This document shows, piece after piece, positions 11,423 through 27,850 of a DNA stretch of 64,000 nt. Origin of the DNA: Candidatus Hodarchaeota archaeon (GTDB lineage: Archaea; Asgardarchaeota; Heimdallarchaeia; Hodarchaeales; Hodarchaeaceae). The notes beneath the pieces are model-generated. The model was not told the DNA's origin and ran no database searches. It saw only the letters and a list, made by a program, of their open reading frames with translations. The stretch covers positions 1 to 64,000 of the forward strand of contig JAEOTC010000038.1 in assembly GCA_016840035.1 (NCBI GenBank). Reading direction: 5' to 3'. The number at the start of each line of letters is the position of its first letter. The stretch's first letter is position 1. Position numbers and translations under genes: made by a program.

Positions 11423-14400
11423 TTACTTCTTTTTCTTCTTTGCTTTAGTCTTCTTACCCGATTCCCCAGATATTGATCCAAGTTCAGATAAGGCATCTGA
11501 AAATAAGTCAATCAAGTCTGGGGGTTTAACCTCGGCCGGTTTAGAAGATTCTGATTCGGGTATTTCTTCATAAGCAACTTCAGGAATGCCAAAAATCTCA
11601 TTAGTATCACTTGATTCATCTTCTGCTAAGGAATCTACCACAGAATCAAAGGTACTAGTGACATCCTTATCAAAAAGACTTTTAGTCTCTTCAAACGGTT
11701 TAGTTTCCTGTCTGGGAGGGATAATGCTTTCTGTATCAACTAAGGCCTTTTCCAATTCCTGTAGACCAGGGAGCTGTTGTTTTTGTAAACTCTCTGCATC
11801 AGGTTCCAGCTGAAGGGACTTGAGTTGAGTTGGTTTTACAACTTCCTCTTTTTTAGGTTGAAAAGTTGACTCCAAGTCGCTTAGATCTGGTGTACCTGTT
11901 GTCTCCTCAACAAAACTGGGTGAAATTGCAGGTTTCGGTTCAGAAATTATGTCTGGGGTGGAGGTTGTAGCATCTTTCTTTAATAAACGCCCGAAAGCAT
12001 CTACTTCCCATTCTTCCTCACTTGTAGATGTATCTTTTTGCGATAATGAACGAAGGACATCAGCTCCTCTTACCTTGGTATCCCCACGAGAGCTAAAAAG
12101 TGTAGTAACCTCATCATCTGATAGAGTAATCCCCTCTTTAGTTATCTGAGTCTGGTCAGGAAGAATCTCATCTTCCATCGTGGGAGAGGTTAATGTTGAT
12201 TCTTCAGGAGTCGGATCTCGGGAAAATAGACTTGAAAGTTCCGCATCACTAAGGGTAGTAGAGGTAATTTCTCCATCTTTTTTGAGAGGAATTTCTAAAA
12301 CTTCGTCACTAATTTGCGGTTGTGCGGTTAAAGCTGGTTCTTCCTGCACTGTATCTCTGGATTGAGGCTCTGGTTCGTGTGTCAGAGGTGGAGCCCCAAA
12401 AGGATCTGGTAATGGGGATTCAGGTTTAATACCTTTTATAACATCTATAATCTCATCTTCTTCTATAACTTCAGGAGCAGTAGGTTGTTCTATTTGTGGT
12501 TCTTCGGCATGAGTAATTATTTCAGATGTATCAACCAATGTAGGCGTCGGTAGTTTCTCGGTTTCAATTTCAATTTGATCTTTCAAAGGTTGAGATTTCA
12601 AGAAACTGCTCCGTGCTTCTGTTAACCGTTTAAATTCCTTTTTGAACTTCTTAGGTTGAATTCTTAGATCATCAATATGTTGTTGTATCTTATCAACTTT
12701 TTCTGAATCTTTTTGATCAGAAACATAGTTTAACATGAATACAAGTGAACCACCTATTTCATCAGAGCGATTAATCATATTTGCTAATTTACTAGTATAT
12801 TCCAAATATCTAAAGACTAGATCCAAATTATCGGTTGAGATTGCTGTATCGATGACATCACAGCTAGTTGTGAAGAGTGCATCCAAATCCTCTAATTCTT
12901 CTAGTTTCTCTATTGTCTGTTGAAAAGCAGTTAAAACAGAATCATCGGAGATGCTGCAAAGATGTTTTGTAAGGAGTGCTAACAGCTTTGCTTCGTGTTT
13001 TTTTGCCTTAAACTTGTTACATATATAAATTCCCCTCTCAAATGTACGAATAGCTCTTTTGGGGGTAGAAGATTGAGTAGCTAGGTTGTAATAAATATCA
13101 ACCACCCCATCAAAGTCATTAGCTCCCCTGAGATAATCAGCTGCAAGGTATGCATATTCAGAAGCTAGGTCAGGATTCTCTTCAGCAACCATCTGAGCGA
13201 ATCTCTGGCAAACATGGGCACCAAGTTGATTCTTTTCCGCAACAAGTTCAGGATTTGTAACAATTTGCTGGATTAAACTATCTAAATACTCTCTTGCTTT
13301 TTCAATATTAGCTTTATTAACCAGGTTCTGAATAAAGGTGAGTGAATGCTCAACAATATCAGAAAAGGGGAGACTTGACCTCTCAGACATTATGGACATT
13401 AATTTAATGGCTTCAGCAGCGAAACCAAACTCTACAAGCTTACCTGTGTATTTGAATACAAGTTTATCGCCAGGATCAACGAGAGCACTGCCATATACAA
13501 GATTAACCAGGGAAATGATGCCATCAGAGGCCTCATAAGTTAAAGCAGACGAAGATATCAAATTATCATAGAATTTTTCAGAATACTTAATGTATTCATC
13601 GAGTGGAGGTGATAGAACTTCATTTACAACAATGAGTAAGGAGACATCGGGAAATTTTGATAAGAGAGGATCTACTACCTTCTTTGTTATTTTCTTAAAA
13701 TCATCTTTTACAGAATGGATTTGTATGATCTTACGGAATATCTTAAGGGACGGTTCTTTTACTTGAATAAAAGTAATGCTAAAAATCATGTGAAGAAATT
13801 CAAGGGCTTTTTCTGGTTTGGTGTCATCCTCAAATAAAGCAGCTACATCAAGTGCAAATTTTATTGCGGAATTGTAGTCTTCATTATCAAGAGAAATCTT
13901 TGCATATTCTTTTATCGATTGGATTGCGATTTTATATTGTTGGTGAGTTTTACCAAATCTAAAAATCAGATCGGTCATTTTAGCTGCATCTTCAAATTGA
14001 TCAAATTCCAAAAATCGATTTCGCATTTTTCCAAGATATTTGATGACATCAGGGATGCTCCCAGAACTTTCTATATATCGAGCATTTTGTACACTGAAAA
14101 TATAAGCATCTTGAAACATTCCTTGATCTAACTGTCTATCGATAATACTCGAAACAATTGAAATGCACTTCTTATATTCCTCTTTCTCCTCGTATTCTTT
14201 TAGAATAATGTCTGTAATTTTCTGTGATAACTCCACTGAATAATCAAGGAGCTCTTCTTGATATTTCACTAACACTTGAAGTGCGCCTTGCTCATCTCCC
14301 ATTCGTTTATAGGCCTCTGAGGTTTCAAAAACATACTTTTGTACAAGATCAACTCTTTGAGTGTGTTCTAATAAATGATCAAGAAAACGACCAATTGAGT

Positions 14401-17014
14401 CAATAGCTCTTGTAAAATCGTTTTGTTTACCTTGGAGAACTACTAGTTGATCCAGAATATGGGCAGCTCTATCAATTTCATTGTTACCCAAAAGCTCATT
14501 AATGAATTTTTGCAGCAGTTCATAATCAATTTGATCTGATTGGAGCATTAAACTCGCAATATAACGGATATATTCAAAAATCATATCACGATGGTCATAC
14601 TCTCTGAGTTTGTCAATAAATTGGCAACAGAACTTCACTACATCTTTTATCTTCTTTGTTTCTAACAAACGAGATAATTCTAGGTTGATCATTTCTTGAG
14701 CAGTAAGAACAGCCTGACTCACAAGCATTTCATCAACATATTTCAAAACAATTTTTTCTCTCTTCTTTGGATCCTCAATAGTTTGAAGAGCAGTCTGTAT
14801 AAATGATTTTGATCGATCTTTCATTCCTAATTTGCCTAATAAATCACCCATCGCTAATTGTTTTTCTATCCGACGAGAATCGTCATCTTTGTAGGCCTTC
14901 CCGATTAGATTTTCGACAAATTGGAGATAATTCTTTGCTGCTTCACTTTCATTTAAGTCTGCAAGACCTCTTACGACACCAAGACTAAAATCAACAGCTT
15001 CTTCAACTTTATTCAATTCATAGTACAATTTAATAGCTTGATTACTAAGTTCACATGCTTTTACATATGTTTCAGTGTCCATAAGTGCATCTGCAGCTTC
15101 TAAAGTAATTTCTAATGCTTTCTCCTTCTTCCCTTGGGTTTCAAGTGTCAGAATTAGGCGATTAATATAGCGTTGGTAATGGGTTTTCTCCTTCGCAGCC
15201 TTAAGTAAATTTGTTGTTTCCTCTAATGTACTCATTATTTCGAAATTAGCCTTTCTTTCTTCTTGAACACCAAGCGCAATATCGATTAAGAAAATAATGT
15301 CATCCATGAACCCATCCTTTTGCCCTGCTGCAAACGAATCCTCACTAGCGCTAATCTCTTTAATAGCAAAGTGTGCATATCGAAGAGCATTTTCCCACAT
15401 AACTACGGGTAATCGAGCATGTTTATAGAATTCTGCTTGTTTCTTTGCTAAAAGTAAGATAGTTGATATTGAATCTGGTGAAATTTTTTCCGATAAATAG
15501 TGATCTAACACTAAATCACATAAATTGGCCGCATTTAGGTGTTTATTTTGATCAGCAAGCATTTCTATGGATTCGAAAACAAATTCAACGGAAGTATCTA
15601 AATCAATGGCTAGTAAATCCGATGTGATTTCAGATTGAATCTTAACTACTTTAGAGTCTTTATTTTGATCAACGAAAAATTGGATAAGCTTTCTTCCAAA
15701 TCGCAAAATACCTTTAGAGTTCTTTTCTTTGCGGAAGCGTCTTAATAAAACCTCTGTGATTTTTGATGCAGCTTTGAGATTTCCCTCTTTCTCTTTCTGT
15801 TCAATAATTTGTAAGAAATGGCCAACTGCTACATTAATTATAATCTGATCCATTGGTTTCTTTGAGAGAGCCCCAATAGTTTGAAAGATTAGTTCTGAAG
15901 CATCATACAAATAGCTGAATGATATCTGAGGGATTTCTTGATTAATTAATCGTGCGATTTCATCCTGATCTATAGTAATCTCTGTGGGAGTGGATATAGT
16001 ACCATCAGACTTTCGGAAACGTAAAAACCAAGAATCAAATTTTCTAAGGATTATACATTCTACTCCTCCAGAATGGGAAATTTCCACTTCCTTGACTGGT
16101 AAGGGTTGTCCGACTTCTACAACTTCTTTCACTTTTACTATAAATTTATCAAAATCTTCAGCTTTACTGAATTCAGACATGTCAAATTCAGACAAATCAA
16201 CAAGTGTGACTTCATCTTGTTCTACTGAAGGGGTTTCTTGCGATGAAGAGAATATTTTAGGATCATCAACATCAACTATACTATCCATTTGAGGTATGGA
16301 AACAGAATCTTCTGATTCAAGTCTTTCTGGTTTTAGTACTAACGATTCAATTCGTTCTGCAGAATCATAAATTGCTGAAAATGATAGAAAATCGATTCCA
16401 GATTCACTAATCAATTCTACAAGCTTATCTTGGTTTACTTCCTCTTTTGAGTAGACTTTTCGTATGAGTAATTCTTCACCTCTAGACAATACAACTGCGT
16501 ATTTTCCCTCTGGAGTGTAATAGATTGAAGCAAAACCTGATTTCGAGTGTAACATCTCGATTCGTGTAAGCTGCTTATCACCAGGAGGAATTGTCAATAT
16601 TTTACTTGTTATTTTTGTTGTTTTTTCATGAATAACTTCCTCCTCTTCTTCAGATGTTGAGTCAGTAATGATTCCAAACTTTTCAGTCATTTCGTTAACA
16701 GGTTGGGTCACAGGAGTCGAATCAGCAGTATCTTCTATCGAGAAAGCCTGAAATTCATCTTTAATAGTTGTAACTAGTAGATCGGCTATATCAAAAATAG
16801 CAGAGAAACTAAAAAATTCCACTCCGGCTTCACTAAGGAGATCTACCATTCGGTCCTGGTCGAGTTTGGCTGGAGAGAGAGAAGAAGAGTTAATTTGTCT
16901 ATCATTTTGGAAAAAATTTAATACATATCGTTCTCCACTTTCTCTAATCTCGACTTCAACCCCAGAAGTAGAAGGAAGCTCTAACCGAATCAGTTTTTCG
17001 TCTCGGGTTGCCAT
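11423..17014 (-). CDS. giant (1863 aa) alpha-helical repeat protein with three N-terminal repeat modules and a disordered acidic C-terminus
   Basis: Uninterrupted 5.6-kb ORF; central TPR-like helical pairs; three N-terminal copies of a 'DQDxxVxLxxExGIxFxSFSAIYDxAExI' module; Lys-rich terminus. Confidence 0.85.
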   Translation of the reverse strand: MATRDEKLIRLELPSTSGVEVEIRESGERYVLNFFQNDRQINSSSLSPAKLDQDRMVDLLSEAGVEFFSFSAIFDIADLLVTTIKDEFQAFSIEDTADSTPVTQPVNEMTEKFGIITDSTSEEEEEVIHEKTTKITSKILTIPPGDKQLTRIEMLHSKSGFASIYYTPEGKYAVVLSRGEELLIRKVYSKEEVNQDKLVELISESGIDFLSFSAIYDSAERIESLVLKPERLESEDSVSIPQMDSIVDVDDPKIFSSSQETPSVEQDEVTLVDLSEFDMSEFSKAEDFDKFIVKVKEVVEVGQPLPVKEVEISHSGGVECIILRKFDSWFLRFRKSDGTISTPTEITIDQDEIARLINQEIPQISFSYLYDASELIFQTIGALSKKPMDQIIINVAVGHFLQIIEQKEKEGNLKAASKITEVLLRRFRKEKNSKGILRFGRKLIQFFVDQNKDSKVVKIQSEITSDLLAIDLDTSVEFVFESIEMLADQNKHLNAANLCDLVLDHYLSEKISPDSISTILLLAKKQAEFYKHARLPVVMWENALRYAHFAIKEISASEDSFAAGQKDGFMDDIIFLIDIALGVQEERKANFEIMSTLEETTNLLKAAKEKTHYQRYINRLILTLETQGKKEKALEITLEAADALMDTETYVKACELSNQAIKLYYELNKVEEAVDFSLGVVRGLADLNESEAAKNYLQFVENLIGKAYKDDDSRRIEKQLAMGDLLGKLGMKDRSKSFIQTALQTIEDPKKREKIVLKYVDEMLVSQAVLTAQEMINLELSRLLETKKIKDVVKFCCQFIDKLREYDHRDMIFEYIRYIASLMLQSDQIDYELLQKFINELLGNNEIDRAAHILDQLVVLQGKQNDFTRAIDSIGRFLDHLLEHTQRVDLVQKYVFETSEAYKRMGDEQGALQVLVKYQEELLDYSVELSQKITDIILKEYEEKEEYKKCISIVSSIIDRQLDQGMFQDAYIFSVQNARYIESSGSIPDVIKYLGKMRNRFLEFDQFEDAAKMTDLIFRFGKTHQQYKIAIQSIKEYAKISLDNEDYNSAIKFALDVAALFEDDTKPEKALEFLHMIFSITFIQVKEPSLKIFRKIIQIHSVKDDFKKITKKVVDPLLSKFPDVSLLIVVNEVLSPPLDEYIKYSEKFYDNLISSSALTYEASDGIISLVNLVYGSALVDPGDKLVFKYTGKLVEFGFAAEAIKLMSIMSERSSLPFSDIVEHSLTFIQNLVNKANIEKAREYLDSLIQQIVTNPELVAEKNQLGAHVCQRFAQMVAEENPDLASEYAYLAADYLRGANDFDGVVDIYYNLATQSSTPKRAIRTFERGIYICNKFKAKKHEAKLLALLTKHLCSISDDSVLTAFQQTIEKLEELEDLDALFTTSCDVIDTAISTDNLDLVFRYLEYTSKLANMINRSDEIGGSLVFMLNYVSDQKDSEKVDKIQQHIDDLRIQPKKFKKEFKRLTEARSSFLKSQPLKDQIEIETEKLPTPTLVDTSEIITHAEEPQIEQPTAPEVIEEDEIIDVIKGIKPESPLPDPFGAPPLTHEPEPQSRDTVQEEPALTAQPQISDEVLEIPLKKDGEITSTTLSDAELSSLFSRDPTPEESTLTSPTMEDEILPDQTQITKEGITLSDDEVTTLFSSRGDTKVRGADVLRSLSQKDTSTSEEEWEVDAFGRLLKKDATTSTPDIISEPKPAISPSFVEETTGTPDLSDLESTFQPKKEEVVKPTQLKSLQLEPDAESLQKQQLPGLQELEKALVDTESIIPPRQETKPFEETKSLFDKDVTSTFDSVVDSLAEDESSDTNEIFGIPEVAYEEIPESESSKPAEVKPPDLIDLFSDALSELGSISGESGKKTKAKKKKK

Positions 17015-25900: not shown

Positions 25901-26176
25901 TTAACAACATTGGCTAGACTTCTCAGGTAAATGGAGAATCTTACGAATTTTTTTACGAACCACGCTTGACACACACCCACATCCGTGAGGGTGAGCTAGT
26001 ATTGCATCTTGGGGACATTGTAGTGCGCATGCTCCACATTCAATACACTTCTTCTCCTCGATTATTTCTGCTTTATTATCTTTATTTAAAGTAATAATTT
26101 GATGTGGACAAACATCTAAGCACCAAGAACATCCATTACATCGCTCTACAAATATGACTGCAACCATTTCTATCAC
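25901..26176 (-). CDS. hgcB: HgcB-like 2x[4Fe-4S] ferredoxin
   Basis: CNGCSWCLDVCP and CIECGACALQCPQDAI, followed by GCGC and a C-terminal vicinal pair ...SSQCC*; directly follows the hgcA-like gene. Confidence 0.8.
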   Translation of the reverse strand: MIEMVAVIFVERCNGCSWCLDVCPHQIITLNKDNKAEIIEEKKCIECGACALQCPQDAILAHPHGCGCVSSVVRKKIRKILHLPEKSSQCC

Positions 26177-26179
26177 ATC

Positions 26180-27850
26180 TCAAACTAATAGGTGTTTAAT
26201 ATCATTTTCAATTAGTGGTATGATTATTGCTATAAGACAAAGTATCACTGCGGGTATCATAAATAATGTGAGGTCACTTTCAACATCTAGATGATTTGTA
26301 TAAGGTGTATTTCCAGCAAGATCTAGAACTATGAATATACTTACCACAGATGTCAGAGCTATCCAAAATATTACCGTGAACAATGAATCAGTTTTTCCTT
26401 GTGTAATTAGGAGGAGAATCGTCCCAAAGATATTAAGTGTTGCCATCACAAGGCCCTTCTTAAAGAAAGAGGATGTGAAATCGAAAAATGGATAAAACCA
26501 GATAAATGCAAAATTTGTCACCAATCCAATAATTAAGAGCTGTAAAACAACAACAACCCAAAATGAGGTCAAAGGAATTTGTATAACCGCTAAAATTCCA
26601 AGAATCAATAATAAGGGTAAGAAAAGAACACAACCGACGAAAAAAGCGTGTTGAATTCCCATAAGAGTTCTAAAGGGAACATTAAATGTGATTCTGGAGC
26701 TTTCAGGTTCTTTAGTGTATAATTTCAAGAAGGAATTTATATCTCCGATATCTACAGGCCCAAAATTAGGTTTCCATCCAGCTTTAGCCAATACTTTGCG
26801 ATCTACTCCCGTTGCTGACAGTTGGGGTAAAATAAGTGAAGAATGATCAATATGATCTCTGAGATTAAATAATCTAATTGCTTCTAATATTTGTGTATGC
26901 GTAAAATGGCCTCCGCCTGCGGCACACCAGACATTGATACCATCAGAATCAATGATCAACAAAAAACAATCAATTTTTTCTTTACAAAGTGTATTATAGA
27001 CCGAATTCACAGTCCAATAGTAATTCGCGGTTACAATTACTGGTGAAGATCTTTGAGGAGTCCCAATTCGATATAATCCAGGTATGATACTTTTTCGTGT
27101 GAATATTCCATTGATAATGCAGTATCCCGTCTTAAGTCGTGGAAACTGGCCAAGAAGAGATTCCAAGGAAGAATATTCTGTAGTTATTGCGGAGGTATCT
27201 TTCAGTTTTGTTACTTCAAACAATTTCACGGTATTCTTTTTATACAACAGAGTGTATTCAAAAAGGTGAGAAAGCTTTCTTTCTAGGTTCTTAACCGGAG
27301 ATGTTGAAGATATGTCTTTGAAGATGGATATCTGATCACGTACGAAATTAGAAGTGGAAAACTTAAGTTTAGAGAATCTAGATACCGGAGTAGTGTCAGC
27401 TGCAAGATAAAATATTCCTTCATCTTTAAGAAATTGATCGATTTGTTTTAAGAATAACTTTTGTTGTAAAGATGAAAATTCAGAGAGTGCAAATGTAGAA
27501 ATTATAAAATCAAACTTTCCAGAGCTCCCTAAACGCTCAATAATTGAACTTGAGAGAAAATTACCTTGAAGAAATTCAACCCTAGTACTTTCTTGCCTTG
27601 CTGTCTCTTTTGCGAAGTCTATCATTTCCTCTGAGATGTCAATAGCAATAACCTCATGGCCTTGCTGCGCAAGATCAAGTGATAAACGTCCAGTTCCAGA
27701 ACCAATCTCAAGCACACGTCCCTGCTTACTAATTCTAGATTTTATCACGTCGTATATTAATTCGGCCTCTGGAAATTTCTTTTTAAACTCCAGATCATAA
27801 GTTTGAGGATCTTTTTCCAAAGCTTTCATATAAACAAGAGACATGGTCAA
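26180..27850 (-). CDS. hgcA: SAM methyltransferase-HgcA-like corrinoid protein fusion with C-terminal TM domain
   Basis: N-term VLEIGSGTGRLSLDLAQQGHEVIAIDIS (class I MTase); then SPVIVTANYYWTVNSVYNTL...INVWCAAGGGHFTHTQI...LPQLSATGV...GWKPNFGPVDIGDINSFL (HgcA corrinoid domain); ~5 TM at C-terminus. Confidence 0.8.
   Translation of the reverse strand: MTMSLVYMKALEKDPQTYDLEFKKKFPEAELIYDVIKSRISKQGRVLEIGSGTGRLSLDLAQQGHEVIAIDISEEMIDFAKETARQESTRVEFLQGNFLSSSIIERLGSSGKFDFIISTFALSEFSSLQQKLFLKQIDQFLKDEGIFYLAADTTPVSRFSKLKFSTSNFVRDQISIFKDISSTSPVKNLERKLSHLFEYTLLYKKNTVKLFEVTKLKDTSAITTEYSSLESLLGQFPRLKTGYCIINGIFTRKSIIPGLYRIGTPQRSSPVIVTANYYWTVNSVYNTLCKEKIDCFLLIIDSDGINVWCAAGGGHFTHTQILEAIRLFNLRDHIDHSSLILPQLSATGVDRKVLAKAGWKPNFGPVDIGDINSFLKLYTKEPESSRITFNVPFRTLMGIQHAFFVGCVLFLPLLLILGILAVIQIPLTSFWVVVVLQLLIIGLVTNFAFIWFYPFFDFTSSFFKKGLVMATLNIFGTILLLITQGKTDSLFTVIFWIALTSVVSIFIVLDLAGNTPYTNHLDVESDLTLFMIPAVILCLIAIIIPLIENDIKHLLV

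Follow-up and report, generated by a model that had tools for sequence, protein, structure and literature searches.

A CpaM~HgcA-Like Fusion Paired With a Cysteine-Tailed HgcB in Asgard Archaea

Introduction

The locus described here poses the question of whether an Asgard gene pair resembling hgcAB is a mercury-methylation system, or a related system that carries a methyltransferase of its own. It lies within the window, meaning the whole 64,000-nucleotide stretch analyzed (Candidatus Hodarchaeota archaeon, contig JAEOTC010000038.1), for which a preliminary description had claimed an hgcAB-like pair with a methyltransferase-HgcA fusion. The source of the methyl group carried by HgcA was open until 2024, when purified HgcAB of P. 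mercurii was shown to take it from SAM by way of methylcobalamin with a Cys ligand, and not from methyl-THF (PMC11588087, PNAS 2024); the SAM-binding site is not named in the text of that paper. Besides SAM as the HgcAB methyl donor, CpaM, named for corrinoid protein-associated methyltransferase, and HgcAB-like proteins are already known, as NCBI families, and HgcA of Asgards has been mentioned before, in Heimdallarchaeota (PMC7305189). No description of a methyltransferase~HgcA fusion was found in the literature searched, with Haft and Gwadz 2023 and Haft and Tolstoy 2025 lying outside that search; within it, the Asgard-wide CpaM~HgcA fusion is a new variant relative to the published systems.

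Architecture of the Locus

The features of the fusion gene and its partner are listed in Table 1. Translation of the fusion probably starts at the ATG at 27844, which would give a protein of 554 aa and would place the called TTG two codons too early, because two orthologs of the same subclade (L035 and L036) are 554 aa long and match this ATG. Matches far beyond chance were obtained for the fusion with Methyltransf_25 (2.9e-18) and CdhD (5.3e-16) in Pfam, and with HgcAB_like (3.7e-60), HgcA (6.9e-49), and CpaM (6.1e-35) in NCBIfam. In the AlphaFold2 model (pLDDT 87.7, pTM 0.83), a methyltransferase with a Rossmann fold is joined to an alpha/beta domain of the corrinoid type and to five long helices at the C-terminus (residues 391-422, 429-456, 462-483, 490-514, and 520-547). 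A Foldseek search with this model gave chain A of the published HgcAB model 9a0b as the top match (E 2.5e-12) and SAM methyltransferases next; the methyltransferase part matched SAM methyltransferases at Z of about 20, in VIA rows that covered mainly residues 7-219 and tested the HgcA part weakly. Across 36 fused homologs, the SAM-motif glycines G50, G52, and G54 and the cap-helix residue Cys309 were invariant, and D71 was nearly so. The claimed motifs VLEIGSGTGRL, NVWCAAGGGHF, SPVIVTANY, LPQLSATGV, and GPVDIGD were all found in place, and the union of a methyltransferase with an HgcA-type domain and about five membrane helices was borne out by Pfam and NCBIfam, AlphaFold2, and Foldseek.

Table 1. 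Coordinates of the fusion gene, its HgcB-like partner, and their features in the window.
Feature	Positions	Strand	Basis or remark
CpaM~HgcA-like fusion ORF	26180..27850	-	556 aa from the called TTG; uninterrupted
Class I SAM methyltransferase domain, CpaM type, N-terminal	27266..27841	-	NF043040 and fold match
HgcA-like corrinoid-binding and membrane domain	26207..27091	-	NF040863 match and Foldseek
Cap-helix motif NVWCAAGGGHF, aa 306-316	26903..26935	-	read in the sequence
SAM motif VLEIGSGTGRL, aa 46-56	27683-27715	-	read in the sequence
Five predicted membrane helices, aa 391-547	26210..26680	-	AlphaFold2 helices and hydropathy
HgcB-like 2x[4Fe-4S] ferredoxin, 91 aa	25901..26176	-	NF040864 match; 3 nt downstream of the fusion ORF
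GCGC after the clusters	25973..25984	-	aligned with GVGC of canonical HgcB
Terminal Cys-Cys of HgcB	25904..25909	-	aligned with CC of canonical HgcB

The 91-aa protein matched HgcB in NCBIfam (1.6e-18), and alignment with canonical HgcB showed that it has two 4Fe-4S motifs, a further Cys beyond the clusters, and a Cys pair at its C-terminus, so that both coordinates and alignment agree with the adjoining HgcB that had been claimed. The GCGC site falls at the C73 position of P. mercurii, and the terminal CC corresponds to C94/C95. Elsewhere in the window, an ORF of 1863 aa (11423-17014, minus strand) had no Pfam match at E 1e-5.

Family Scores and Phylogenetic Placement

The proteins were scored against curated NCBIfam cut-offs of 275 bits for HgcA (NF040863), 99 for HgcB (NF040864), 180 for CpaM (NF043040), and 285 for HgcAB_like (NF043039). 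The fusion reached 166.7 and 168.4 bits against NF040863, as compared with 453 and 459 bits for two canonical HgcA proteins (about 455 vs. 167-168 bits), and in a profile search none of 227 genomes of the phylum passed the NF040863 cut-off. Also below their cut-offs were HgcB (66.3 bits), the methyltransferase (120.6 bits over aa 4-195 in hmmscan and 123 in the genome search), and the match of the fusion to NF043039 (204 bits), with HgcB being a separate gene and not part of the same chain. The CpaM cut-off was passed by the fusion of Heimdallarchaeota bin6 (G006, 222 bits) and by two bacterial fusions (230 and 272 bits). The fusion shows the cap-helix Cys and five C-terminal membrane helices by which HgcA is recognized; however, the motif NVWCAAGK, present in nearly all canonical HgcA, is replaced by NVWCAAGGG in the window and by NVWCAARG in the Loki/Thor fusions. 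The earlier caution about the missing Lys was thus justified, and it extends to the whole fused group.

In an HgcA tree rooted with CFeSP, the 31 canonical HgcA rows included formed a 100/100 clade, with the window fusion outside it. The Thor/Loki fusions formed a clade (96/82) that was sister to canonical HgcA at 93/79, a value that is not decisive, and there was no supported placement for the Heimdall subclade of the window, the G006 fusion, or the two bacterial fusions. None of the groupings submitted to AU tests was rejected, whether a clade of all Asgard fusions (p 0.44), a clade of the fused and the bacterial fused proteins (p 0.128), canonical HgcA with the main fused group and the window subclade (p 0.471), a clade of all CpaM-linked proteins that leaves out canonical HgcA (p 0.444), or canonical HgcA with all Asgard fusions (p 0.366). 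A methyltransferase tree recovered the same groups as the HgcA tree at lower resolution; three of four other methyltransferases were separate from CpaM (SH-aLRT 88), and one long-branch row fell inside the CpaM group. By its scores and its position in the tree, the window fusion belongs to the HgcA superfamily as a branch apart from canonical HgcA. An HgcA-type fusion with mercury-type HgcB cysteines therefore stands from the preliminary description, but a strict hgcAB pair does not: the profile check against curated HgcA and HgcB gave matches below both cut-offs, the phylogenetic check placed the corrinoid domain outside the canonical clade, and a plain canonical hgcAB is ruled out by these cut-offs and the tree.

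A simple CFeSP was also ruled out, since CFeSP formed a separate 100/100 group. CFeSP (CdhE/AcsC) shares a homologous corrinoid domain with the fusion (PF03599; PDB 2h9a) but is soluble, is charged by methyl-tetrahydropterin, lacks the cap-helix Cys motif, and is the outgroup of the tree. In the genome of the window, which is about 87% complete, the sole PF03599 match was the fusion itself, and thus no CFeSP was found there; this genome encodes other B12-binding proteins and one pterin-binding-domain protein only.

Canonical HgcAB and the fused system have in common the corrinoid domain with the cap-helix Cys, five membrane helices, a two-cluster HgcB with GxGC and a terminal CC, and ArsR neighbors in many loci; canonical HgcAB differs in having no methyltransferase domain, no CpaM (25 genomes), and the NVWCAAGK motif. 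The other known relative, an HgcAB-like fusion with CpaM (NF043039 and NF043040), likewise places a CpaM-type methyltransferase beside an HgcA-like protein and yields similar HMM scores; however, its HgcA~HgcB is one chain without tail cysteines and its CpaM is usually a separate gene, whereas in the window system CpaM~HgcA is one chain and HgcB is separate and tailed. Related organometal systems were probably described by Haft and Gwadz in 2023.

These results bear on the reading that the locus is a true mercury-methylating HgcAB of Asgards, in which the methyltransferase is an accessory. HgcB has a cysteine at each of the three positions that are reported to matter for Hg methylation, in alignment with canonical HgcB, the Thor/Loki fusions were recovered as sister to canonical HgcA (93/79), and the HgcAB model is the first Foldseek match; against this, the HgcA and HgcB scores lie below the curated cut-offs, the cap-helix Lys is absent, the fusion falls outside the canonical clade, and P. 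furiosus and M. methylutens, which both carry HgcA~B fusions, made no methylmercury (PMC5893877), so that homology alone is insufficient to name the substrate. We consider this reading quite unlikely.

Distribution and the HgcB Tail

The 227 genomes of the phylum sample were searched with profiles, and the matching loci were then classified by gene arrangement. The CpaM~HgcA fusion was recovered at 58 loci in 57 of these genomes, spanning six families, as open frames of about 550-600 aa, with a readable HgcB directly downstream in 55 of the loci. An assembly artefact or chance ORF is ruled out by this recurrence, and the search for the same architecture elsewhere that had been proposed was thereby answered, with two further fusions in bacteria, from Poribacteria (L202) and Anaerolineae (L242). 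Among the named relatives are Thorarchaeota, Lokiarchaeota, Sigynarchaeum, a Prometheoarchaeum sp., and Heimdallarchaeota bin6 (CP070695); the last belongs to the window's own genus, in keeping with the Asgard-type host first proposed. Relatives on plasmids were looked for and none were found. One Asgard genome (G122) carried two fused loci (L138 and L144); a 2021 paper knew of no genome with several HgcAB copies.

Other Asgard arrangements were CpaM, HgcA, and HgcB as three genes (six loci), CpaM adjoining an HgcA~HgcB fusion (nine loci among those examined), and triple CpaM~HgcA~HgcB fusions of about 640 aa (three loci, L156, L157, and L158). The triple fusion of L158 was modeled with pLDDT 87.8 and pTM 0.87, and its best 50 Foldseek matches listed were solely methyltransferases. 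Among the intact HgcA-like genes of the phylum, nearly all thus encoded a CpaM-type methyltransferase within their own product or adjoined a gene for one; at L037 it lay 2.6 kb from the HgcA-like gene, and two further loci ended at contig ends.

Both GxGC and the C-terminal Cys pair were present in all 55 Asgard fused loci with a readable HgcB, and neither was present in any of 18 CpaM-linked unfused Asgard loci. The fusion and the mercury-type HgcB tail are therefore strongly associated in Asgards, in counts taken across related genomes that are not independent. A further tailed locus, L159, has lost its 5′ end at a contig end and groups among the fused proteins in the tree.

Genomic Neighborhood

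Of the 58 fused loci, 21 had an ACR3-family arsenite permease nearby, in most cases immediately upstream and in the same orientation, and 33 had a nearby regulator of the ArsR type. In 18 fused loci, hgcB was directly followed by a small Cys-rich protein of 90-168 aa (e.g., L121 3845-4351) that matched nothing in Pfam or NCBIfam. All three kinds of neighbor occurred in Loki and Thor families, and among the unfused Asgard loci examined ACR3 was present in just one. None of the three was found in the window's subclade (five fused loci of its family), and the window's genome encodes an ACR3 on another contig. Many canonical hgcA loci have ArsR just upstream, as previously reported (PMC7438021).

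The cysteines of HgcB point to a metal(loid) acceptor with an affinity for thiols, and both Hg(II) and As(III) are candidates, mercury from the likeness of HgcB and arsenic from the operon setting in Loki and Thor. For the Loki/Thor loci the genomic evidence favors an arsenic-linked role, and the operon setting in Lokiarchaea supplies a possible native function other than mercury methylation for the family. An extended reading is that the fusions are SAM-driven metal(loid) methylases in their own right, with arsenic as the substrate in Loki/Thor and perhaps a different soft metal in Heimdall, and that mercury-methylating HgcA arose from a CpaM-partnered ancestor and later lost the methyltransferase. 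Such a descent is neither supported nor rejected by the AU tests, and we regard the whole as conceivable, though rather doubtful.

Possible Mechanism

With moderate confidence, we propose that the fusion is a membrane-bound, SAM-driven corrinoid methyltransferase acting on a soft, thiol-bound metal(loid). HgcB would hand low-potential electrons to the corrinoid to give Co(I), the fused CpaM domain would bind SAM and methylate the cobalt, and the cap-helix Cys would stabilize the methyl-Co(III); the methyl group would then pass to a metal(loid) ion held by the GCGC and CC cysteines of HgcB, which may also bring the substrate or remove the product. The domains, the conserved SAM-motif and cap-helix residues, the pairing of the fusion with the HgcB tail, and the recurrence across the phylum are observed; for the fusion itself, we infer that a corrinoid is bound, in what order the methyl group is transferred, and that a metal(loid) accepts it. 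In favor of the proposal are the CpaM-type methyltransferases that accompany nearly all intact HgcA-like genes of the phylum, the agreement in groups between the methyltransferase and HgcA trees, the retained SAM-binding residues, the use of SAM by purified P. mercurii HgcAB, the window genome's lack of a detected CFeSP and its other B12-binding proteins, the HgcB tail of the fused loci, and their ACR3 and ArsR neighbors. The window's own subclade, which has neither neighbor, counts against it. The SAM-driven route suggested in the preliminary description is plausible, and fits the published biochemistry of canonical HgcAB (PMC11588087).

The simplest reading for the CpaM-linked group is that CpaM charges the corrinoid. 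It is also possible that the corrinoid charges itself from SAM, as in canonical HgcA, and that the fused methyltransferase acts later, on the metal(loid) product or a thiol carrier, adding a further methyl. Canonical HgcAB uses SAM without CpaM (PMC11588087), which was found above its cut-off in none of the 25 canonical-hgcA genomes searched, so that the methyltransferase is unneeded for SAM use there and CpaM may act otherwise; in addition, Pfam and Foldseek match the fused domain to methyltransferases of small molecules, TehB among them. However, CpaM accompanies HgcA~B proteins without metal-tail cysteines as well, which argues for a role common to both, and thus for charging rather than work on a metal product. 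We hold the later action to be unlikely.

In a third reading the usual methyl donor is a different one, and CpaM reactivates the corrinoid by SAM-dependent methylation when the cobalt is oxidized to Co(II). MetH provides a precedent, as a corrinoid enzyme known to be rescued in this SAM-dependent way by its activation domain, but that domain has a fold that differs from the class I fold, and CpaM matched the class I fold in structure. No other methyl-donor route is evident in the window's genome either, given its lack of a detected CFeSP and its single pterin-binding-domain protein, and reactivation appears very improbable.

Under the proposed charging by CpaM, the conserved Asgard fusion, always accompanied by mercury-type HgcB cysteines, provides a direct model of that step, and one open to experiment. 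Surveys based on hgcA must keep the fused group apart from methylators of proven activity before methylmercury production is ascribed to Asgards.

Related Bacterial Loci

The HgcB-like proteins of the two bacterial fusions (L202 7230-7487 and L242 6765-7112) are without a terminal CC, and thus, in these two cases outside Asgards, the link between fusion and CC tail does not hold. At an Oligoflexia locus (L193 1-2507), ArsR and CpaM are fused in one chain, and behind them lies an HgcA~HgcB fusion whose tail is rich in Cys. In the bacterial hgcB of L188, L215, L221, L239, L240, L243, and L246, the frames read GVG-TGA-A and continue to a terminal CC; the TGA looks like a selenocysteine codon at the position of the extra Cys, and selenoprotein homologs of HgcAB have already been mentioned in the literature.
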